DNA from: Emcibacter sp.
GTDB lineage: Bacteria; Pseudomonadota; Alphaproteobacteria; Sphingomonadales; Emcibacteraceae
NCBI GenBank assembly: GCA_026982375.1
Contig: JALSHF010000018.1
Coordinates: 1-32,961 of the forward strand
Direction: 5' to 3'
DNA: 32,961 nt
The notes beneath the pieces are model-generated. The model was not told the origin of the DNA and searched no databases. It saw only the letters and a list, made by a program, of their open reading frames with translations. How positions within the stretch are numbered: the stretch's first letter is position 1; the number at the start of each line of letters is the position of its first letter. The translations under genes were made by a program, and so were the position numbers. Of the stretch, positions 19,122 through 32,961 are shown in pieces.

Positions 19122-21380
19122 TTACACGGATAGAATCAACGGCCAGCCACGGCCAATATTGTCACTGATTTGGAAAATTCGAACATCCAGAATTGCCTGC
19201 GCGGTGCCAAAATCCTCAATCTGGGATGATGCCGAATAAATCACTTCGGAAACATCACTGGTCAAAGTTCGAACCACCGCCCCGCCATTTAAAATTTCAA
19301 TATCATATCTTTCAAAATTCTCACCGAGCGGGACATCAGCATTATCCATCCAGTCCCCGCCCACACGGCTGCGCCTGATCCAGCTCAACGCCAGCGTACC
19401 GGCACCGTCCCGCAGCCCTTTTCCATGCACGGGCGAAAAAGGCTTCAAAACGGCGGCCCCGAAAACGCGGCTTATGGCAGGGGCATTTTCGACGCTTGCC
19501 CCCGCCGTCACAAGTTTGAAATGGTGACTAAGCCCAATATCAGAAGGATACATTGCCGCCATATTAACCGTTGCGCTGTTAAGCAAAACAAAGCTTTCTG
19601 ACAGGGTATGCTGAGTTATATGTCTTTCGGTCCCTCGCCGCCCCCTGAGCAATCCGGTCAATCGATAGGAGCCATCCGGCTCAAAGCTTGCCTGTTGAAA
19701 TTGAATAATCTCCCCGCCAACCCAGGCGATATTGGCACCATTCAAAACAGCCTCCGATGTTGCGCCAGATAATCCGTGATCCGGATTATCCAACCGGACA
19801 AATATCTCATTGCCATAATCCCAATAGGCGGCGGGCCCAACCGGCAATATATTTTCAACAATTCCGCTAATGGCATCCACATTGGCGTAATCCAACGGCG
19901 CATATGTTTGATCATTATCTCTTGATATGAACAGGCCCGCGCCGGGCCATTTCCCTGCCCCTGCGGCCACGGCCCAGAAAAAAACAGGTGATGTGACATT
20001 TTCACCCGTTATGGCCGGCATATCAAAATGAAAAAACACACTTTCTGCCAATTCCTCCACTTGTTGCGCCGGCACAGGGCCACTATCCGCTTGCGCAGAT
20101 CTTTCCAGACGAAGATTAGAGAATTTCACCGCCTGACATTGCACTCCCTCCGGCCCGATTTCTGTTTCTTGCAGCAAATAATCCTGCACCTGTGATTCGG
20201 ACGCCATCGTGACGATATCACCGGGCAAGAGGTCACCATATTTATGGGGCAAGGCAAAACTTATTGTTTCCCGGCCATACCAGGCAAGGTCAAGCTGTAT
20301 CTCGGAGGCGGTTTTTGCCTGACTTGATGATAAAACCAATGGCAGCCCGCTTTGACGGACAATGTCACTTGCCACATTTAATCTTCTGGCCCTTTGATGT
20401 CCGGTTTGATAATCCCGGCTGGGATCAATATAAGACAGGCCGATTTCCCGGGGCAGCTCCATATCCTGCTGGCGGGTTATGGTTATCTTGTCCGAAGGGC
20501 GCGCCCCCTGTGGGGATTGAACCAAATCATCAGGCAACACCACCGCCCCCGGCAATCGTCCCAGCTTTCGGAACAGCAGACCATTTTCCTGCTCTACCAC
20601 ATCAAATTGATAAACCCGCGCAAGCTCTTCTATGGCAGCTCTGGATTTCACAGGGCCAGAGATCAAATAACCACCGACCACCTGATTCAGGTCACTGGCA
20701 TCAAATATGGTAATATTTGACAGTTGGCAAATATCAGAAACAATAGCAGAAAGTAAAATTTCCCCGCCAGTATCCGCAATGACCTCAAAGGTCAGATTAG
20801 GAATACGGTTGGCATATTCACCCAACGCCAAATCCTCAAATACCACATAGGACAGATTGGCAAACCCGTTAACATTGCCCTGCCCTTCAAGGGCTTCAAT
20901 CATGGGGTCTGATTGTTGAAAGCCATCGCCCTGATAAATCCTCATTTCCCCGCCGACGGCTATTTTACCTGCGCCATCCCGCAACAGCTTGCCATCTGCC
21001 CAGACACGCCCCACATCTGAAATCTCGCGCCCGGACAGGGCCACGGCGAATGACGCGCTATAACTATATTCAATCGTCGTAACATTTTGCCTGCTGCCCT
21101 TGCCGCCGCTGCTTTCTGTTTTCTCATTTCGGGTTTCCTTCAAGCCCGAAGACCAGATCACATTGCCCGGCACTCTCATTGTCCCATAAATCCGGGAAAT
21201 CGGCTCGCCGTAAGCAGAGGTTTGAACGCTAAGGTCTTTCAACCGCCCGCCTTCGATTGTGCGGGAACTGGTGCCCCCGAAAATTGCCTGATCAACGCGT
21301 TGACCGATCAAACCACCAACAAGGCCGCCAATAGGCCCGCCAATGGCGGTTCCAACGACAGTAAGTACAACACTCGCCAT
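19122..21380 (-). CDS. GTA gp15-like host-specificity/tail tip protein (short form, no obvious TIM barrel)
   Basis: VGTAIGGPIGGLVGGLIGQRVDQAIFGGTSSRTIEGGRLKDLSVQTSAYGEPISRIYGTMRVPGNVIWSSGLKETRNE matches the gp15-like N-terminus; tail-tip region and GLLRGRRGTERHI motif follow directly; 752 aa. Confidence 0.85.
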   Translation of the reverse strand: MASVVLTVVGTAIGGPIGGLVGGLIGQRVDQAIFGGTSSRTIEGGRLKDLSVQTSAYGEPISRIYGTMRVPGNVIWSSGLKETRNEKTESSGGKGSRQNVTTIEYSYSASFAVALSGREISDVGRVWADGKLLRDGAGKIAVGGEMRIYQGDGFQQSDPMIEALEGQGNVNGFANLSYVVFEDLALGEYANRIPNLTFEVIADTGGEILLSAIVSDICQLSNITIFDASDLNQVVGGYLISGPVKSRAAIEELARVYQFDVVEQENGLLFRKLGRLPGAVVLPDDLVQSPQGARPSDKITITRQQDMELPREIGLSYIDPSRDYQTGHQRARRLNVASDIVRQSGLPLVLSSSQAKTASEIQLDLAWYGRETISFALPHKYGDLLPGDIVTMASESQVQDYLLQETEIGPEGVQCQAVKFSNLRLERSAQADSGPVPAQQVEELAESVFFHFDMPAITGENVTSPVFFWAVAAGAGKWPGAGLFISRDNDQTYAPLDYANVDAISGIVENILPVGPAAYWDYGNEIFVRLDNPDHGLSGATSEAVLNGANIAWVGGEIIQFQQASFEPDGSYRLTGLLRGRRGTERHITQHTLSESFVLLNSATVNMAAMYPSDIGLSHHFKLVTAGASVENAPAISRVFGAAVLKPFSPVHGKGLRDGAGTLALSWIRRSRVGGDWMDNADVPLGENFERYDIEILNGGAVVRTLTSDVSEVIYSASSQIEDFGTAQAILDVRIFQISDNIGRGWPLILSV

Positions 21381-21844
21381 TATATCATTCCTGTATTTTT
21401 TAATGAGAGACTTTGTGAAATCAGTTTAGAGGGGAAAGCATGAACCGAGGTTATTCTGGACCGCCAGACGTCGTCCAGCCCATGCTCAACCACCTTGCCA
21501 TATTTCTCACAAGCATGAATAATGCCGCGATCCGATATGATGGCAGCATGTTCCAGATATTTACCAAATTTCAGGATCAGAATATGACCCGCCGTCAGAT
21601 CATTTCTTGGGCAAGCCATAAAACCCGCCGCTATTGCCTGCCGGGAAATTGCGAATTTTTCAGGTATTTTTTTATAGTCTTTATGATCAAATCCCGTAAG
21701 CCCTATGGCTTTTGCCACATAGACGATCAAGCCTATGCAATCCAGACCATTGGCCGGATCGCGTCCCTGATGACGGAAAGATGACCCAACGCAGCTTCGC
21801 GCTATTGAAATTATCTTTTTTTGATGCAGATCGCATGTGGTCAT
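21380..21844 (-). CDS. GTA gp14-like NlpC/P60 cell-wall peptidase
   Basis: ARSCVGSSFRHQGRDPANGLDCIGLIVYVAKAIG (catalytic Cys), LEHAAIISDRGIIHACEKYGKVVEH (catalytic His); start/stop overlap with gp15-like gene. Confidence 0.9.
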   Translation of the reverse strand: MTTCDLHQKKIISIARSCVGSSFRHQGRDPANGLDCIGLIVYVAKAIGLTGFDHKDYKKIPEKFAISRQAIAAGFMACPRNDLTAGHILILKFGKYLEHAAIISDRGIIHACEKYGKVVEHGLDDVWRSRITSVHAFPSKLISQSLSLKNTGMI

Positions 21845-21884
21845 TTCAAAAAAACTTTGCTATCACTATTCAACAGAAAATAAA

Positions 21885-22604
21885 ATGGAGAAATTGTCGG
21901 CTATGGACATGAATGTTATCGGGTTGCATATTCACGAGTTAAGAAACCAATGCCGCTTTATCGAGGCAAGTGTGGATATTTTAAACCAGTCAATGGAAAA
22001 ACAAGCCTCTGTTGGCGTTTTTTTTGGTCTGCAAAATATCATGCTCGGGACAAATAATATTTCCCGCACCCTTTGGACACCGCGTAAAAAGGGGAAAGAA
22101 CGCGCCGCATCCTTACGGGAAACCCTTGGCCTTCCAGAGAAATACCCTTTGAATAATGAGAGTATTCTGTCACTTGTTGATCATGCTGATGAAGCCAGCG
22201 ATCAATGGATCAACCGATCCAAGGATAAGTATATCCTCTATGACTTCATTGGCGATATATCCGCAAGTCAGCATAAAGACGTTGAAACAAAAAATATTTT
22301 CCGGGCCTTTGATACAGCCACGAAAATATATACCTATCTTGGCACGAGCTTTAATCTTGAGGCCCTGTTAAAGGCACTGGCGGATGTGAGCAACCGGGTG
22401 AATCAGGTTCATATGCGCCTGTATCCTGACCAATGGAAAGAAGAGCCCGCCTCAAAAGAAGAAGAAAAGCCAGCATTAAAGAAAACAAGCCCGAAAAAAA
22501 CGGCGGCGAAGAAAACTACCCTAGTAAAACCGGCCCAAAAAAAACCGGCCCAAAAGAAATCGGCTGCAAAGAAAACGACCAAGAAGCCAGCCGCTAAAAA
22601 ATAA
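21885..22604 (+). CDS. Helical-domain protein with Lys/Ala/Pro-rich histone H1-like C-terminal tail
   Basis: ORF track start 21837; starts at 21885 (MEKLSAMDMN) or 21906 (MDMNVIG) are more plausible. Tail KKTSPKKTAAKKTTLVKPAQKKPAQKKSAAKKTTKKPAAKK. Confidence 0.75.
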   Translation: MEKLSAMDMNVIGLHIHELRNQCRFIEASVDILNQSMEKQASVGVFFGLQNIMLGTNNISRTLWTPRKKGKERAASLRETLGLPEKYPLNNESILSLVDHADEASDQWINRSKDKYILYDFIGDISASQHKDVETKNIFRAFDTATKIYTYLGTSFNLEALLKALADVSNRVNQVHMRLYPDQWKEEPASKEEEKPALKKTSPKKTAAKKTTLVKPAQKKPAQKKSAAKKTTKKPAAKK

Positions 22605-22609
22605 TCCCC

Positions 22610-23452
22610 TCATTTAAGGCCGGGATAGTTATAGAGGGAATCTGTCCCGGGTATGGCTATCTCGCCTTTAAAGTTTTCAAAATTCTGAAATTTATTTTTA
22701 CAGGTTGCCGATCGTTTATCGCAGCCCGCAGCGGCAAGAAACTGATCGCCAACCATTATGGGTTCGGGCGGCTGATCATATAAAATAAATTGCCCCCCCG
22801 TAAAAGTCTTTACTTCTGACATAATGCCGCTATTGCCGCCCCGAAGCCAGCGGACATAACCATAATCATACCATCCGCTCGCCTCTGGCTTGTTCACATC
22901 CGTAAAGCTGTCTCGGCCCAGAACTTCTGTCACGCTGCCGAGGGCTGTATATTTTTCCATATTAACATGACAATTATCAGTCCCCAGATCCGCGCGGCAT
23001 TCGGGCGAGTATAGATGCCCTATCACCTGCTGTAATTTCTGCGCAAGCCCCCTGATGTCAACGGTGAAATTTTGATCCTTCAATGTGAATTCCCCGAGCC
23101 AGCCATGACGGACAGAGATTTTTCCCATCGTCAAATCCTGCCAGTTCACCTGAAAAATTGAAATGCGGCTGTGATCCAGCAGCCCGGCGCGAATGTCTTT
23201 TTCTGACAGGCCATCCGAAGATAATATCGCCTGAACTTCCAGATTATCCACATTTAAACTGTTGGTGCTGCTTACCATAGAGGGCAGGAAACTATTAACC
23301 GGTGAAAAGGTAAGATTATCAAAATAGATTTCCCTGTCATGGGTGGTAAAGGCCAGCCGCACGCCGTCCCGGCGCGTTAATACCCAGCATGTGACCATTG
23401 AGGTAAGTTCGCCTGAAATATGGCTTTTCAATTGCGGAGAAATTTGTTTCAT
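22610..23452 (-). CDS. GTA gp13-like baseplate hub protein (DUF2163)
   Basis: TCWVLTRRDGVRLAFTTHDREIYFDNLTFSPVNSF; YSPECRADLGTDNCHV; AGCDKRSATCKNKFQNFENFKGEIAIPG. Confidence 0.93.
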   Translation of the reverse strand: MKQISPQLKSHISGELTSMVTCWVLTRRDGVRLAFTTHDREIYFDNLTFSPVNSFLPSMVSSTNSLNVDNLEVQAILSSDGLSEKDIRAGLLDHSRISIFQVNWQDLTMGKISVRHGWLGEFTLKDQNFTVDIRGLAQKLQQVIGHLYSPECRADLGTDNCHVNMEKYTALGSVTEVLGRDSFTDVNKPEASGWYDYGYVRWLRGGNSGIMSEVKTFTGGQFILYDQPPEPIMVGDQFLAAAGCDKRSATCKNKFQNFENFKGEIAIPGTDSLYNYPGLK

Positions 23453-25801
23453 TTAAACCCTTACCTCAATCAACGCAATGGATGGGATTTGTCCGGCCTG
23501 ATAGCTTTCTAAGGTTATCGGCAGGAAATCATCTGAAAAACGCACCGGAACATCAAATTCATATCCCGCCGTAATCACAGCTCCGTTCACGGGAGCCACC
23601 TCAAAAATGACAACACCGTTTGTCACATCCACCTGCCAGCCGGCGGCCTGCACCGCGCCATCAACGGCAATGAGTACCGTACCTATTACCGGTTTTCGGA
23701 TATCACGTATGTGCAGAACTCCCCCACTGTCATATGTTTTTGTCAATTGGAATGAGGCCGTGACGCCGTCTCCCGCGCCGATGGTTTGGTCGGTTGCCGC
23801 AATAGCCTCCATCGGGGCGCAGCTTTTAAAATCAAGCCAGTCCTTATAGCGAAAACCATAGGCCCGCCCGGCACGCGCCCGAAAAAAACCGATTAATTCG
23901 CCCAGGTCATTTTCCGATCTGAGGCCCAGACCAACATCATAAATATTTCGGGCCTGCGCCCATTCCTGATTGCGTTGTTCATGCCCCGAAGCCATCTCAA
24001 TCACAGTTGTCATAAATTGCGGCCCGCCGCTCGCACCGTAGCTGATGTCTTCCGGCAGCCTTACTTCGTGAAATCCTGTCATAATATTTTCCTGATTATT
24101 GGTGTAAATTACCCCGTCACGGACAATTTGCGGGTAGGCCCAGACAAAGATTTCTGCGTAATTATCCTGAAACCCAAGGTCCACGGCCCCAATGATATTG
24201 CGCCAATTTTCCAAAGTTTCCGGCAGCAGGTTAAAACCACCAAAATAATGGGTTTCTTCCCGGGGGTAGGCTAATGTTTGATCGATAATATCAATGGCGG
24301 CTTGGCGTTTTCCCCATTCCCCATTCAGGACAAAATCATAATCTTCCACCTGCAGGAAATCAAAAGCCGGCCATTGCCAATAAGATGATGGAAAATTAAC
24401 GACACCCGCGATGGGGGCATTATCATGCAGCACTTGCGGCGTGAAGAACAAAAGCCCCACGTTAGCCGAGGGATATTGAGCTTTCACCTGATCTTTTAAC
24501 CAAAGGGTTGATTGACCCAGTTTATCCCTGAGCCAGTTTAAATAATCCTGCTGATCCGGCGTGGCAATTTCAGTGGCCAGCAGATGTTTGGGCGGCACAG
24601 CATTGGTGGTTTCTGCCGTATAAAGCGCTGTGGTCACATCATCATAAATATGCGGCACGCCTTCCCCGTCCTCTGCAATCCACCACCAGGGCTCGCCGAC
24701 CTGATAATAATGATCCGCACCAACAAGCTCTATAATCTGTCCGAATGCCAGAAAAACATCCCGCAAATAATCAAGAGCGTCCTGATTGGTTGGTGCGACC
24801 AAACCGGAAGGCGGCACCCAGCCGGTTCGGGCCGGCGCGCCATCATGGGCTTTTTGCTGCCAGATTTCGGGGATATTTTCTGCAAAAACCTCATAGGACA
24901 GCGAGAATATAACTTTAAAGCCAAAATAATTGGCCAGTTCCAGAAAGTTTTTATGCCAGCTTATGGCCGCCTTGTTTAATTTTTCCTTGGTGGTATCAAT
25001 GATGAACCGGCCTTCTGCCCCATCCCAGCTCAAACTATAATAATGGCTCATCCCCACATAATGGTTGATCCAGCCGCTATAGCCCAGACGTATCATATTC
25101 CAGATCACCCGTTCCGGGGCAAGCGATGTGACATCATCATAGCCATTGGCAATACGCAGGTCATGACTTTGGACATAACCGTCCCCGACTTTCAAAGTCG
25201 ATGTGGGGCCACTGACGGTGATCTCGGAAATGGTGACCTGCGCGTCGACGGCGGCGGGCAAGGGGCCTGTGGTTGCACCGTCAAAAGCCGTTGGCACCAT
25301 ACTGATAAACATCCGGTCAATGTCTTTTGGATATACGGGGTCTGCCTCTAACGGATGCAGATAGCCGCCGGCAAGATCATCAAAATTCAACGTGATAATG
25401 GCATCGTCATTGCTGCCCACGGCATAATTCCACAGGCGGACATACCATGTGCGCGCAAGGCCATTCTGATCCCTGCCCTCTATGGTCAATGTGGGGCTAT
25501 GTAAAATATCCAGCGCCTTGACATTAACGGATTGCCAGCGGAAACTCAGCACGCTATGAGAATAATCCCTGTTGGTGGCATACTGATGAAAGGGATGATC
25601 AATAGTGTCCACCGTATCCCATATGAGACCGCATAAATCCTCATAGCGGTAAAATACAAGGTCAATGGCCAGGCTGTCATAGCCCGTCGTCACCATAGAG
25701 GCCATCATGGGACGGGGGAAATTAACCGTCCAGTAGCGGGGCGAAAATCTGCGGATATAACTGATTTGCGCCTGATCTTCCTGCGTTGCCAGCCAATACA
25801 T
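23453..25801 (-). CDS. Fusion: N-terminal TIM-barrel/tail-sheath-like region plus C-terminal GTA gp12-like DUF2460 domain
   Basis: 782 aa; last about 209 aa (MTGFHEVRLPEDISYGASGGPQFMTTVIEMASGHEQRNQEWAQARNIYDVGLGLRSENDLGELIGFFRARAGRAYGFRYKDWLDFKS) are DUF2460-like; central VGEPWWWIAEDG, VGLLFFTPQ, FDFLQVEDYDFV are TIM-barrel-like. Confidence 0.85.
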   Translation of the reverse strand: MYWLATQEDQAQISYIRRFSPRYWTVNFPRPMMASMVTTGYDSLAIDLVFYRYEDLCGLIWDTVDTIDHPFHQYATNRDYSHSVLSFRWQSVNVKALDILHSPTLTIEGRDQNGLARTWYVRLWNYAVGSNDDAIITLNFDDLAGGYLHPLEADPVYPKDIDRMFISMVPTAFDGATTGPLPAAVDAQVTISEITVSGPTSTLKVGDGYVQSHDLRIANGYDDVTSLAPERVIWNMIRLGYSGWINHYVGMSHYYSLSWDGAEGRFIIDTTKEKLNKAAISWHKNFLELANYFGFKVIFSLSYEVFAENIPEIWQQKAHDGAPARTGWVPPSGLVAPTNQDALDYLRDVFLAFGQIIELVGADHYYQVGEPWWWIAEDGEGVPHIYDDVTTALYTAETTNAVPPKHLLATEIATPDQQDYLNWLRDKLGQSTLWLKDQVKAQYPSANVGLLFFTPQVLHDNAPIAGVVNFPSSYWQWPAFDFLQVEDYDFVLNGEWGKRQAAIDIIDQTLAYPREETHYFGGFNLLPETLENWRNIIGAVDLGFQDNYAEIFVWAYPQIVRDGVIYTNNQENIMTGFHEVRLPEDISYGASGGPQFMTTVIEMASGHEQRNQEWAQARNIYDVGLGLRSENDLGELIGFFRARAGRAYGFRYKDWLDFKSCAPMEAIAATDQTIGAGDGVTASFQLTKTYDSGGVLHIRDIRKPVIGTVLIAVDGAVQAAGWQVDVTNGVVIFEVAPVNGAVITAGYEFDVPVRFSDDFLPITLESYQAGQIPSIALIEVRV

Positions 25802-26388
25802 TATAAATCCCTTTCGGCGCGGCCCATGGCCCGGCGCACAGCCACGGCGACCTGGCCTGCGCTGCGCCGTGACATATCATTGCCGCCGCCCTGATTGGTA
25901 ATATTTATGGTAATATTGGTCATTCTGTCCGAAGTCCTCTCGCTCTTCACACCCTGATTTGGGATAATGCGGCCCGGGTTTTCCGGTACGAATAACTCCG
26001 GCCCCCTTTCCCCCACCAGATAGGGCTGGCGCGCCCCGACCGTCCCGCCGCCTGCACGGCCAAAAAACGCGCTGGCAATATTGCCAATTGCCCCGCCAAT
26101 GCCGCTACTCTGGCCAAAAATACTGTTCAGGCCGGACTGGACGGCACTATTGGCAATGTCATTCAGCACCGATAAAGCCACCTGTTTCAGACTGGAAAAA
26201 TTAAGTTCTCCATTGCGGGCGAAATTTTCAAAAACCCGCGTCATGCCATCAGTCGTTCGCGCCGCCACATCCTCAAGCCCGCCAAAATCTTTCTCGATAT
26301 CCGCCAACTGCCCGCGCAAGTCCGCACTATCAGCCCTGATCTTCACGACCAGACTGTCTATAACTGTTTCTGTCATAATTTTTTCCAT
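25801..26388 (-). CDS. GTA gp11-like short tail tape measure protein
   Basis: 195 aa; VIDSLVVKIRADSADLRGQLADIEKDFGGL ... FGRAGGGTVGARQPYLVGERGPELFVPENPGRIIPN; stop overlaps the next start (TAATG). Confidence 0.87.
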   Translation of the reverse strand: MEKIMTETVIDSLVVKIRADSADLRGQLADIEKDFGGLEDVAARTTDGMTRVFENFARNGELNFSSLKQVALSVLNDIANSAVQSGLNSIFGQSSGIGGAIGNIASAFFGRAGGGTVGARQPYLVGERGPELFVPENPGRIIPNQGVKSERTSDRMTNITINITNQGGGNDMSRRSAGQVAVAVRRAMGRAERDL

Positions 26389-26931: not shown

Positions 26932-28230
26932 ATGATATTCCGAAATTTAATACAAAAATTCCTAGCCCTCGGCACCGGAATTATACTGATCTTCGTAACC
27001 ATATTTATTGTTGTGGTCGTGCAGGAATATTACTGGGAAAATGACTATAACCGGATGAATCAGGAATTAGCTGAAGTGTCTAAATCCCTTGAAAGAGATA
27101 GCGCCGCAAGGAAACGTCAAGACGAAGAAATCCGGCAAGCTTCCAGAGAACGAGAACGGAAAAGCCGGCTATACCATATGTCACTTAGCACAGCTTTCAA
27201 AGAAGGCCGTTGCCCTGATTTTCTGGAACTTCTTGATTTTAAAATACCCCTAATGACCCCGGAAAGCCTTCTGCAAGCGGATCTTTATATGCGCGGCACA
27301 TGCGCAAAGCAGGACTTCTCCAAAGCCTTGGCAATTTATGACACTTCTTTACATTATATTTATGATGACAGCCCAAAAACCAATGCCCAACCTAAGATAT
27401 TATTGGCGGAATATTACGGTTATACCGCCCATATTAAATTTCGTCTGGCAACCCTTTATTGGCGCGGCCAAGGGGTTGCTGAAGACAGACAGAAAGCTCT
27501 GGAATTATCAAAAGAAGCCGCCCTTATATTGGCCCCGTGGTATGCTAAAGTAAAACACCGTGCCCCTGATCCCGATCTTGGCCCCACCAATGCATGGAGC
27601 ATGTCCGATGTGGATATTCTCGAAAATGTCACCTTTCATGGGACGGGGCCGTGGGATATGCCGGGGCCGCTTATCCAACAGATAAACTGGTTAAAAGAAA
27701 TTCACAAGGATGGCGCAAAGGCCTATCTTAAAATTGGTTTGCACCTCCTTAATGGCACGGGTGGATATGAACGAGACCCGGTGATAGCTTATGAATGGAT
27801 TTATATTGCCTCTCATTTTTATGACTATGGCCCGGCGCATTATGCCCGCGCCATGCTCATGCGTAACGAAGAATTTTATGAGAAAAGAAAGAAATTCTCC
27901 ATAGTTTCCATCGACTTCCGCCGATCCCATGACAATTTCTATGTCAAGATGAGGGCATATGGTCTATTACAAAATGCGGCTAAGTCCGCAGATACCCGCG
28001 CCGACAAAGAGCTTCTTCGTTTTCATCAACATGCCCCAGCCTATATAACCCAACAGCAGGATATTTATTTCTGGATGTTACGATTATATCAGCAGAATGA
28101 TCCTGATATCACAAAAGAGGGCCTGTCACATATCCGAAAAAACCTGGACAAATATCAGATTGATCTCATTGAAAAAAATATAAAAGAAAACCGTTTCCCT
28201 ACCTATCCCCTATTGCCCCCGAAAAAATAA
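26932..28230 (+). CDS. Membrane-anchored Sel1-like repeat protein
   Basis: 432 aa; N-terminal TM helix ALGTGIILIFVTIFIVVVVQ, then coiled coil and Sel1-like repeats (IKFRLATLYWRGQGVAEDRQKALELSKEAA; AYLKIGLHLLNGTGGYERDPVIAYEWIYIASHF). Confidence 0.78.
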   Translation: MIFRNLIQKFLALGTGIILIFVTIFIVVVVQEYYWENDYNRMNQELAEVSKSLERDSAARKRQDEEIRQASRERERKSRLYHMSLSTAFKEGRCPDFLELLDFKIPLMTPESLLQADLYMRGTCAKQDFSKALAIYDTSLHYIYDDSPKTNAQPKILLAEYYGYTAHIKFRLATLYWRGQGVAEDRQKALELSKEAALILAPWYAKVKHRAPDPDLGPTNAWSMSDVDILENVTFHGTGPWDMPGPLIQQINWLKEIHKDGAKAYLKIGLHLLNGTGGYERDPVIAYEWIYIASHFYDYGPAHYARAMLMRNEEFYEKRKKFSIVSIDFRRSHDNFYVKMRAYGLLQNAAKSADTRADKELLRFHQHAPAYITQQQDIYFWMLRLYQQNDPDITKEGLSHIRKNLDKYQIDLIEKNIKENRFPTYPLLPPKK

Positions 28231-28854: not shown

Positions 28855-29182
28855 CATCACCAGCATTGAGCCCCACAAGGCACAGGGTCAGCAGATCCCG
28901 AACCACCGGCGATACCTTCGCGACGCCCTCATTGAGCAGCAAGCTGCCCACATCTTCAAAATTCATCTGCTCTTCCATGGTGGCCCAGATAATAACGGTC
29001 ATTTCTTTAAAGCCAAAATCACCGTCCGCCGCCTTTACCGCAAGGCCAATGATACCGCCCAACCGCTCTTCAATATCCATGATCGCCTGAAATGTCGGTT
29101 TCAGGCGATATTCCGCGCCGGACAGCGTGATGATCACACTATTTCTAAAGGATTTATCGACAGCCTGATCAAACATTGACAA
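28847..29182 (-). CDS. GTA gp10 family protein
   Basis: ITLSGAEYRLKPTFQAIMDIEERLGGIIGLAVKAADGDFGFKEMTVIIWATM. Confidence 0.86.
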   Translation of the reverse strand: MSMFDQAVDKSFRNSVIITLSGAEYRLKPTFQAIMDIEERLGGIIGLAVKAADGDFGFKEMTVIIWATMEEQMNFEDVGSLLLNEGVAKVSPVVRDLLTLCLVGLNAGDDG

Positions 29183-29582
29183 AACTTACCATACCAGAAC
29201 TTTCCAGAGCGATACTATAGGTTCTCTCACCGTTGTAATCTCCGGAAAATTCCAGTGACGTCACCTGAAAGGCTCCGGAAAATTTATCGCCGCTTTCAAA
29301 GACGACCTCGTAATTATCGACGCTGCCTGCCAGAGCTTTCGCCTGCAAGTTGGCCTCACTGGCGGAATTGGTGAAAATGCCGCTGCCGCTCAGGGAAATT
29401 TGGCGAATGCCCGCGCCGGATAAAATTTCTCGCCAGCCGCCGGAAGTTTTATTGGTCACATCGACCGTCTCATTATTTATTCTGATGGATGTGGAGCGCA
29501 TGCCCCCCACCACAGTGAATATTTCGGGGCCGCCTCCGTCGCCAATTCTCAACAAAAAGGCGCGTCCTTTTTCTGCTGCCAT
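29169..29582 (-). CDS. Major tail protein (GTA gp9-like)
   Basis: KGRAFLLRIGDGGGPEIFTVVGGMRSTSIRINNETVDVTNKTSGGWREILSGAGIRQISLSGSGIFTNS. Confidence 0.9.
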   Translation of the reverse strand: MAAEKGRAFLLRIGDGGGPEIFTVVGGMRSTSIRINNETVDVTNKTSGGWREILSGAGIRQISLSGSGIFTNSASEANLQAKALAGSVDNYEVVFESGDKFSGAFQVTSLEFSGDYNGERTYSIALESSGMVSFVNV

Positions 29583-29642: not shown

Positions 29643-30047
29643 TCAATTTTGTATACTGCTGCCGCGAAAGCGTAATATGCCGTGGCGCACGTCACCATTT
29701 TCATCAAAAAAATTCTCGAAAAAGATAAATTTCAACTCAATAAGCTGATGGCCCATCAGGGTTAAATCCTGACCCGCAAGCAAATCTGCGACCTTATCCG
29801 CCAGGATGCGTATTTGGCCCCCGCCCTTTTGTCCGGACCAGATATGAACATCTATTATATGCTCCTGACCCGAAAAATCCTTGGCCGACCAGTCATATGA
29901 GCTGCCTTCCCCAATGGTTATATAGGGCAAATTCTGGCCTTCCGGGGCGGGATCAAAGATACCGGAAATTTCCGCCATCAAAATACTGTCATTATTGAGC
30001 TTGTCATAGATCGCCTGCCACAGGCTTTGCGTTGCAAGTAACGTCAT
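29643..30047 (-). CDS. GTA gp8-like tail terminator (DUF3168)
   Basis: QSLWQAIYDKLNNDSILMAEISGIFDPAPEGQNLPYITIGEGSSYDWSAKDFSGQEHIIDVHIWSG. Confidence 0.87.
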   Translation of the reverse strand: MTLLATQSLWQAIYDKLNNDSILMAEISGIFDPAPEGQNLPYITIGEGSSYDWSAKDFSGQEHIIDVHIWSGQKGGGQIRILADKVADLLAGQDLTLMGHQLIELKFIFFENFFDENGDVRHGILRFRGSSIQN

Positions 30048-30098
30048 AGCTGATTTCTTTCAGAAAAAATGCGGGGGTTAAATATAGCTTGGATAAAA

Positions 30099-30413
30099 CT
30101 ATCCAATAAGGCCCGAGAAAGTCACCTTCACCTCTTCCACCGCCGGGGTAAGAAAAGGTCTGGCGGGCTGATTGATGGTGCCAAACTCCACAAATCTGGC
30201 ATAGGGTTTGTCCGTAAAAACCCGGATCTCCCCCTCCGGCGTCACCACACGATCGATGGAGCTGGCCAGGGGGCTGTTATTCTTACGGTTTTTCAAATTG
30301 GCATATACTCTCTTTCGCGCGCTGCTCACGATTTGATCCGCCATTTGCGCGATCATTCGCGCCAGTTTTTCTTCATAATCCACCGCCTTGTTTGTCAGTT
30401 GCAATGAAGCCAT
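30099..30413 (-). CDS. HK97-gp10-like head-tail protein
   Basis: QIVSSARKRVYANLKNRKNNSPLASSIDRVVTPEGEIRVFTDKPYARFVEFGTINQPARPFLTPAVEE. Confidence 0.85.
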   Translation of the reverse strand: MASLQLTNKAVDYEEKLARMIAQMADQIVSSARKRVYANLKNRKNNSPLASSIDRVVTPEGEIRVFTDKPYARFVEFGTINQPARPFLTPAVEEVKVTFSGLIG

Positions 30414-30730
30414 CAGGCCTGATCCTCCACAACGTCAAATTCAAGGATACGCTTGCGATTATCAGGATTGAGAAAACTGACCACGCGGTAGGCCTGCCCC
30501 TGCCACAAAATCCTTCGGGTAGCCAGTAATATGTCTTGATAGCGCAGCTGAATGTTATATTTCCCCACGAATTGATTTTGCCGCGCCGTAATTTCTGCGT
30601 CATTGGACGCCGCCTTGACATCGGCCCAGACGATGGCAATATCCTGCCAGTTTTGCAATTGTTCCCCCGCTGATATGGGCGTGAATAGCCGCTTCTGACA
30701 GGTGATTTTTTGATGCATTCTTCTTGTCAT
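30413..30730 (-). CDS. GTA gp7-like head closure/adaptor protein
   Basis: MTRRMHQKITCQKRLF...NWQDIAIVWADVKAASNDAEITARQNQFVGKYNIQLRYQDILLATRRILWQGQAYRVVSFLNPDNRKRILEF; start overlaps gp6 stop (TAATG). ORF track start is 30760. Confidence 0.83.
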   Translation of the reverse strand: MTRRMHQKITCQKRLFTPISAGEQLQNWQDIAIVWADVKAASNDAEITARQNQFVGKYNIQLRYQDILLATRRILWQGQAYRVVSFLNPDNRKRILEFDVVEDQA

Positions 30731-31284
30731 TACAGTGCCACCCGCCGGTAAGGCTGCCATAGGTTTTCGGCTATCTTCACCGCCTGATTGCCGGATAGCC
30801 CCCCATCATAGGCGGCGGCGACCCAATGAAGCAGTCCATGGCGGATATCATGGGGAACGTCATTTTTCCCCGCGCCAAATCCCGCCGTTACGATGACTTT
30901 TATGCCTTCAATATCCCGTTCAGGCGTTGGCCAATGATCGCCGACCCTGAGCAAAATCCTGGCCTGATAAGAGGTGCGGTCCAGAAGATATTTCTCCGGC
31001 AGAATCTCCTGAAATTCCTCCGCAATCCAGACCTCTATTCTATCCACAGATAAAATTGGCGAGAGGGGAATAGATATCACCTCCTCTGTCCAGTCATTAT
31101 AGGTTAGCTGCCATTGTTGCTGGATCAATTTTCGTCCGGTGAAAGTCTCGCAGGCCGCTGCGCCAGCCCGAATAAAACCCGCAATCATGGCATCTTCATC
31201 ATTATGCGAGATTTTCAAGAAATCCCGCACCTCGGGTAAACCAACGGCAAGAGTTTCTGCTTCTGAAATAAGCTGTATCATCAT
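30730..31284 (-). CDS. GTA gp6-like head-tail connector
   Basis: EVRDFLKISHNDEDAMIAGFIRAGAAACETFTGRKLIQQQWQLTYNDW... IKVIVTAGFGAGKNDVPHDIRHGLLHWVAAAYDG. Confidence 0.87.
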   Translation of the reverse strand: MMIQLISEAETLAVGLPEVRDFLKISHNDEDAMIAGFIRAGAAACETFTGRKLIQQQWQLTYNDWTEEVISIPLSPILSVDRIEVWIAEEFQEILPEKYLLDRTSYQARILLRVGDHWPTPERDIEGIKVIVTAGFGAGKNDVPHDIRHGLLHWVAAAYDGGLSGNQAVKIAENLWQPYRRVAL

Positions 31285-31965: not shown

Positions 31966-32961
31966 TTAATTTCGAGTGTTAATTGGGTATATTATTCTAG
32001 GCTCTCCCGAGCTGGAAATTGCCCTGTTTGCCCTCTCTGCCTTTTGCATTCTTAATGTGCTTGGCGTTACGTCAGCGGGGTCAAATAACGGTGCCACATC
32101 ACTGCTTAAGGCGTGTGTTGCCCTTTGTGCCACTAACGCAAAAAATTGATTAATAGCAACCTGATTTGATACAATAGTATGGCGAGAACTATTGACAATG
32201 GATGTAGCGCCTTGGGTCTGGGCAGGGCTATCGCTTGCGACTGCATGATCTGCAATGGCAACAAGCAACGCCTGACTTTGCGCAATTGTTACATTATCCA
32301 CCGTCTGCGTATGATCTGCGCGGTCAGCTGACATCGATTGCTGTTGTGATAATGCTGCATTATCCACCGTCTGCCCCGATATTGCGCCATTTACAACAAG
32401 CGTGGCACCGCCTCCCACCGCTTCCGGCGTTCCCGCTATGCCAAAGGCGGCGGGGTTCGATTGATTGTTATATTCTGTTGTGAGCCAGTCGGCCGACCTG
32501 TCAAGTCCGACACGAAACTCCGCTATATCCCCACGATAATCCTGCGAGCCATCGGCCCAGCCTCCAATTCTAAAAGAGCTGAACGGCCCTGCGCCTGATA
32601 GCGAACCGGTATTAGTTCCATCATCCGCTCCAAGTTCATCATTGATGTAAAGCCTTTGGTCAAGATTCGCCATACCCAATGCGAACCTGTTCCATGTCCC
32701 AATAACCATGGGGTTTACAAGGTTACTGTTTCTTGTTATTGGCCTTGCGCCGGTAGCATCCCGCCAAAAGACTCTTGTTTGCGGCGGAGTGGTGCGCTCC
32801 TCGTAAGGAAGAAACAGAAGATCATCTACCCCGCCCCATCCAAAAGCCGATGAATAATCATATGGCCACGCGCTTTTTTTGGCCCATAGAGATACGCCGA
32901 ACGGATAAGCAGTTGGCCTGTCAATAAGAGTCGTATTTCCGGTTACATTAAGATACGCACC
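31966..32961 (-). CDS. Fibre-like protein with LamG/concanavalin-like region and C-terminal approx. 22-aa repeats (5' end beyond window)
   Basis: Frame read upstream of the annotated Met as ...EERTTPPQTRVFWRDATGARPITRNSNLVNP; the stretch checked (to about 32810) has no stop. SSFRIGGWADGSQDYRGDIAEFRVGLDRSADWLTTEYNNQSNPAAF is LamG-like. Confidence 0.7.
   Translation of the reverse strand, partial: GAYLNVTGNTTLIDRPTAYPFGVSLWAKKSAWPYDYSSAFGWGGVDDLLFLPYEERTTPPQTRVFWRDATGARPITRNSNLVNPMVIGTWNRFALGMANLDQRLYINDELGADDGTNTGSLSGAGPFSSFRIGGWADGSQDYRGDIAEFRVGLDRSADWLTTEYNNQSNPAAFGIAGTPEAVGGGATLVVNGAISGQTVDNAALSQQQSMSADRADHTQTVDNVTIAQSQALLVAIADHAVASDSPAQTQGATSIVNSSRHTIVSNQVAINQFFALVAQRATHALSSDVAPLFDPADVTPSTLRMQKAERANRAISSSGEPRIIYPINTRN

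Follow-up and report, generated by a model that had tools for sequence, protein, structure and literature searches.

Tail gene cluster of the window

The window, i.e., the whole stretch of 32,961 nucleotides analyzed here, carries on its reverse strand a series of tail genes in the order adaptor, stopper, terminator, tube, short tape measure, Dit, hub, NlpC peptidase, and megatron. The terminator, neck, stopper, and adaptor genes (gp6-gp8 region) are found at 29643..31284 (−), the tail tube gene (gp9, by NCBIfam) at 29169..29582 (−), and the gene for a short tape-measure protein of 195 aa (gp11, by Pfam and NCBIfam) at 25801..26388 (−). The stop codon of gp11 overlaps the ATG of the next gene (TAATG), a single open frame at 23453..25801 (−) that encodes a fused protein of 782 aa, with NCTSP_N, an NCTSP TIM barrel, and Dit (DUF2460, gp12/Rcc01695 type). 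Next to it are the genes for the hub (gp13; 22610..23452, −; TIGR02218, PF09931, and PF09356), the NlpC/P60 peptidase (gp14; 21380..21844, −; Pfam and NCBIfam), and a 752-aa megatron with no barrel (gp15; 19122..21380, −; Pfam and alignment to the RcGTA megatron). The contig stops before the head genes; in a genome of the same genus, where the cluster lies on one contig (L043), the terminase, portal, protease, and capsid genes were found upstream, in the RcGTA order. With the head genes taken from that genome, the head-tail order is of the RcGTA type and closes at the 3' end with Dit, hub, peptidase, and megatron. Judged by its gene content, the locus thus forms the last, tail-encoding part of an RcGTA-type head-tail cluster. 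RcGTA (Rcc01695 Dit, Rcc01696 hub, Rcc01698 megatron) shares with the window the gene order from the packaging genes to the megatron, the short tape measure, a homologous Dit, the hub, the peptidase, and both ends of the megatron, and clusters of this kind are well documented in Sphingomonadales (PMC6821227; PMC9765227). The window differs from RcGTA in that its Dit has an N-terminal NCTSP module and an internal start, and its megatron is devoid of the peripheral/TIM region of about 560 aa.

A TIM barrel of the phage N4 sheath type is fused to Dit

Analysis of the 782-aa protein with Pfam detected NCTSP_N at residues 16-206 (25184..25756, −; PF23844, E 1.2e-85), corresponding to the N-terminal region of N4 gp65, a (β/α)8 barrel of the N4 gp64 type at residues 212-563 (24113..25168, −; PF23845, TIM-barrel_NCTSP, E 5.3e-110), and DUF2460 at residues 578-781 (PF09343, E 1.1e-82). 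The first two domains scored 286 and 368 bits against a curated cut-off of 27, which places them within the NCTSP families, and TIGR02217 scored 254 bits against the NCBIfam cut-off of 136.65, which places the protein in the Dit/Rcc01695 family. The C-terminus is occupied by DUF2460, and the long C-terminal sheath domains of the 1382-aa gp65 were not found. An AlphaFold2 model built from 64 sequences (pLDDT 91.9, pTM 0.76) contained a barrel of eight strands, at residues 215-220, 244-248, 296-302, 365-369, 447-453, 482-486, 517-520, and 550-553. The initial annotation had described this protein as a TIM-barrel-type region placed in front of DUF2460, and both the three Pfam families and the predicted barrel upheld this description, as opposed to an N-terminal half with no TIM fold. 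When the model was compared with known structures by Foldseek, N4 gp64 was the top match (rmsd 2.1 over about 300 columns), followed by N4 gp65, the R4C Dit (target-normalised TM 0.79, indicating a Dit fold), and then glycoside hydrolases. In agreement, the sequence comparison tied the protein to N4 gp64/gp65 and Dit.

The fusion is real and no artefact, since the same in-frame architecture recurs in 131 genomes and dN/dS is low, about 0.05-0.13, in all three domains wherever computable; a chance match, a misassembly, and a one-off fusion were ruled out on these grounds. At the level of sequence, purifying selection acts on the three domains. When the fused gene was compared with its nearest relative (L021), pS was 0.20-0.25 in NCTSP_N and the barrel and 0.40 in Dit and the megatron; this lower synonymous divergence of the N-terminal part hints at recombination inside the fused gene.

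The initial annotation had also proposed, as one of two options, that the barrel was relocated from gp15 to gp12. Both modules in question are TIM barrels, and the presence of one coincides with the absence of the other; however, the alignment of the NCTSP barrel with GTA_TIM profiles by hhalign gave a probability of only 0.4-0.6%, i.e., below 1%, so the two families have no detectable similarity, and the best structural match was N4 gp64. Moreover, NCTSP_N, a domain of N4-type sheath proteins, accompanies the barrel, and a comparison of NCTSP_N with the megatron region that precedes the barrel revealed no similarity. A relocation is therefore highly improbable. From both profiles and the model, the barrel is of the phage N4 gp64/gp65 sheath type, a family other than the megatron GTA_TIM. 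The non-contractile tail sheath of N4 (gp64:gp65) is made of the same NCTSP_N and TIM barrel families as the fused protein; in contrast to the window, the N4 module is on two separate proteins that are unjoined to Dit. In the N4 sequence (L095, 1523-5671 and 5704-6957), residues 374-416 of gp65 match positions 4-46 of the barrel profile and gp64 matches positions 60-347, so the sheath barrel of N4 appears, from this sequence match, to be divided between gp65 and gp64. The Acinetobacter siphophage Loki (LOKI_17, PHROG 6040) resembles the window in having NCTSP_N and the TIM barrel ahead of a tail-tip protein, but there the module is on another tail protein, which is the hub in the C-type clusters described below, and a separate Dit adjoins it.

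Three glutamates of the barrel, E304, E370, and E486, were invariant in 64 of 64 sequences; in the model, E370 comes directly after strand 4 and E486 is at the end of strand 6. Acids aligned to the conserved glutamates are also present in N4, Loki, and Nerthus. In the predicted structure, these residues fit a glycoside-hydrolase-like site with a putative activity, and their conservation may also be structural. The module could instead be a structural spacer or a glycan binder devoid of enzyme activity, as the published role of N4 gp64:gp65 is that of a sheath and receptor-binding complex (PMC12633501). The invariant acids, with the same reservation about a structural role, speak against this, as do the glycoside hydrolases that are the best PDB matches after the N4 and Dit chains, and we rate a non-enzymatic module a little below an even chance.

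The megatron of the cluster is barrel-less

The 752-aa gp15 aligned to residues 20-208 of the RcGTA megatron and then to residues 766-1296, and so the alignment skipped the 'peripheral' domain, which comprises residues 230-744 in the solved structure (PMC7296036). The gap between the N-terminal and central domains was about 27 aa, versus about 570 aa in megatrons with GTA_TIM, which leaves no TIM barrel between the two conserved halves. A profile search of the whole genome to which the window belongs gave no match to GTA_TIM (PF13547), and gp15 scored 566.9 bits with the NF048004 equivalog, under the cut-off of 800, thus falling outside the megatrons that contain GTA_TIM. The jump from about residue 208 to about residue 766 and the profile searches, which found the NCTSP-type barrel and DUF2460 in the 782-aa protein and no GTA_TIM in gp15, agree with the initial suspicion that gp15 had no barrel.

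Distribution of the tail-tip architectures

Among 61 genomes (that of the window and 60 relatives), the NCTSP barrel was present in 31 and GTA_TIM in none. When 251 genomes of the order, presumably Sphingomonadales in the GTDB sense, were searched, the NCTSP barrel was found in 132, DUF2460 in 134, and GTA_TIM over its cut-off in 0; in 131 of the 132 barrel genomes, DUF2460 followed the barrel in frame at a distance of 120 nt or less. At the level of the class (289 genomes), 29 genomes had GTA_TIM and 4 had the NCTSP barrel, with no genome having both. Outside these genomes, only one of 50,697 phage records, an unannotated fecal contig, matched the fused protein over 80% or more of its length, and IMG/VR contained at least 577 stretches encoding relatives of it. 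The loci that were read included 174 with barrel and Dit, some of them counted more than once, and 11 with barrel and hub. Many of the fusion-bearing 'viral' contigs of IMG/VR, 14-20 kb long (e.g., L099, L103, and L106), resemble GTA clusters more than phages.

Four architectures of the tail tip were distinguished. In architecture A, Dit and hub are stand-alone proteins and the megatron contains GTA_TIM; in B, that of the window, the barrel is on Dit and the megatron is short; in C, Dit is stand-alone, the barrel is on the hub, and the megatron is short (G044:C14, G055:C6, G217, G491:C47, and G527:C23, with siphophage Loki similar); and in D, Dit is stand-alone, the hub has an insert of about 190-216 aa, and the megatron one of about 410 aa (G019 and G369). 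Neither the hub nor the megatron inserts of the D type (L044 and L045 of G019; L264 of G369) matched a known barrel. By eye, these inserts look propeller-like and carbohydrate-binding-like, and G019 has two near-identical D clusters about 55 kb apart. In an unrooted tree of the tail-tip proteins, based on Dit, hub, and megatron parts with the barrels excluded, each of the four architectures formed one side of a single branch, with SH-aLRT values of 99-100. On sequence grounds, then, the barrel-Dit fusion is the standard state of GTA-like clusters across the order, rather than a peculiarity of this particular particle, as it had initially been taken to be. The other option that the initial annotation offered, acquisition of an unrelated barrel with loss of the gp15 one, was supported, the acquired barrel being of the NCTSP type; the gp15 barrel was presumably lost rather than never present, the order of gain and loss not being deducible from an unrooted tree. 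In genomes G044, G055, G491, and G527, a C cluster occurs in addition to a B cluster, and the C clusters of these genomes are therefore probably prophages.

A conserved internal start codon at the barrel/Dit joint

The methionine at 24082 that opens the DUF2460 part had been pointed out in the initial annotation and is indeed there; its conservation as a translation start had been missed. The internal start codon (24080..24082, −) is ATG in the window and ATG, GTG, or TTG in relatives, and it is preceded, at a distance of 7 nt, by a Shine-Dalgarno-like AGGA (24090..24093, −) that is conserved across the order. The predicted second product is a stand-alone Dit of 209 aa (23453..24082, −), in frame inside the fused gene. 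At this single codon, located immediately ahead of the Dit domain, 133 of 143 fused genes had a start codon (69 ATG, 61 GTG, and 3 TTG), versus a median frequency of 3% at 81 surrounding codons; as the sequences are related, these counts overstate their independence. When one-codon shifts were allowed, a start codon was found at the joint in 131 of 132 less redundant fused genes, and the remaining gene had a GTG with a Shine-Dalgarno-like stretch a few codons earlier. All the valines at this codon were encoded by GTG (61 of 61; background 54%), part of this purity being due to ATG-to-GTG being a one-step change, and all the leucines were encoded by TTG (background 13%). On a tree that excluded the joint, at least 27 switches among ATG, GTG, and TTG were counted, along with one apparent change to a non-start codon. 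Even within the genus, synonymous sites have come close to saturation (dS of at least 1.5 to most relatives), and Met, Val, and Leu interchange here only as start codons; the simplest reading is thus selection on the start function and not on the amino acid.

The pairing with the 16S tail upstream of the internal start averaged -8.1 kcal/mol, versus a median of -2.8 kcal/mol over 60 codons on each side, and the same measure at the hub gene's own start was weaker, at -6.2 kcal/mol. No such Shine-Dalgarno and start signal was observed at the NCTSP_N/barrel joint or at the barrel/hub joint of the C-type clusters. Compared with synonymous shuffles, the Shine-Dalgarno strength showed a mean z of -0.86, with 91% of genes in the expected direction, an excess that is modest because the local residues (QE/EE) themselves spell the motif. 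In addition, the stand-alone Dits of other clusters begin at the position that matches the internal start. A Shine-Dalgarno motif and a start codon are thus conserved together at a domain boundary above the codon-level expectation, as in a nested gene. This conserved pair of signals at the barrel/Dit joint, seen in the aligned genes, is put forward as new: no earlier description was found in the literature searched, which was without the 2017 paper on the 'ancient prophage' of the order.

The fused protein might be the sole product, with the internal signals a relic of a stand-alone gene and six barrels at the tail end. This would suit the frame, open through the joint in 131 of 131 in-frame cases, and the six-fold gp64:gp65 sheath of N4 (PMC12633501). 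A relic, however, would decay, whereas the codon remained ATG, GTG, or TTG through the many switches listed above, and the Shine-Dalgarno motif was kept, despite near-saturated synonymous sites. We regard a sole product as unlikely. An open frame across the joint in every one of these genes argues for a requirement for the fused product as well, and one gene making both barrel-Dit and Dit alone is the most likely interpretation of the sequences. Internal starts that yield a C-terminal domain on its own occur in the in-frame nested genes lambda C/Nu3 and cas8/cas11; the predicted nested product described here differs from theirs in that its effect would be to tune how many surface barrels a tail ring carries. 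In four genomes, G041 (L015), G009, G347, and G428, the barrel frame is broken by a stop or a frameshift and the Dit part is intact; the breaks may reflect sequencing errors, or a decaying barrel may be tolerated, given the separate start of Dit.

Proposed composition of the tail ring

In RcGTA, a Dit hexamer sits on a three-fold baseplate (PMC7296036), and R4C has six Dit versus three hub and three megatron subunits (PMC10276861). Odd and even Dit subunits contact the baseplate differently, and the Dit N-terminus is within that contact (PMC7296036; PMC10276861). A module of 570 aa on this N-terminus would lie near the site of the RcGTA peripheral domain, where not every ring position may have room for it, and the short Dit would fill those not taken by barrel-Dit. 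In the GTA of this order, the surface barrel is part of an N4-type sheath module (NCTSP_N plus TIM barrel) that extends the Dit ring protein at its N-terminus, and it is absent from the megatron. We propose that ribosomes would produce a long barrel-Dit plus a short Dit from the fused gene; that the Dit hexamer would mix both forms, perhaps 3+3 in alternation; that three barrels would then project over the three-fold baseplate, leaving the ring uncrowded; and that the barrel would probably bind or cut a surface glycan ahead of DNA delivery. As a joint claim, an N4-type barrel on Dit, a barrel-less megatron, two products, a mixed ring, and a glycan-facing barrel are together, in our judgment, quite probable.

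The A and C types should have three barrels per particle because the carrier proteins are trimeric, and we hypothesize by analogy that a 3+3 Dit ring would match that number. The stricter proposal of an alternating 3+3 hexamer, in which the internal start sets three barrels and gives differing odd and even subunits that settle the six-to-three mismatch, is tentative, and we would sooner doubt it than assume it. Should ribosomes use the internal start, the GTAs of the whole order would set their ring composition by translation within one gene, and the meeting of a six-fold tail with a three-fold baseplate would become open to a simple proteomic test. The presumed glycan-facing module of GTA-like tails is exchangeable, being on the megatron, Dit, or hub according to lineage and drawn from different barrel families, and hence what a tail tip displays is not readable from gp15 alone.

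Other genes at the locus

Between the hub and peptidase genes, on the opposite strand, there is a gene of 255 aa with a lysine-rich tail (21837-22604, +), and the search of Pfam and NCBIfam assigned it to no clear family. In several families of the order, the clusters have homologues (28-89% identity) at this very place and likewise inverted, and none was found in the large family f6. The gene is a candidate for a regulatory or accessory role in the cluster. A LamG-like gene (31966-32709, −) adjoins the adaptor region and shows 33-37% identity within the genus, versus about 50-80% for its neighbours. Finally, a 432-aa Sel1-repeat gene (26932-28230, +) lies on the opposite strand between the tape measure and tube genes, and it was found at the same place only in a close relative (L024).
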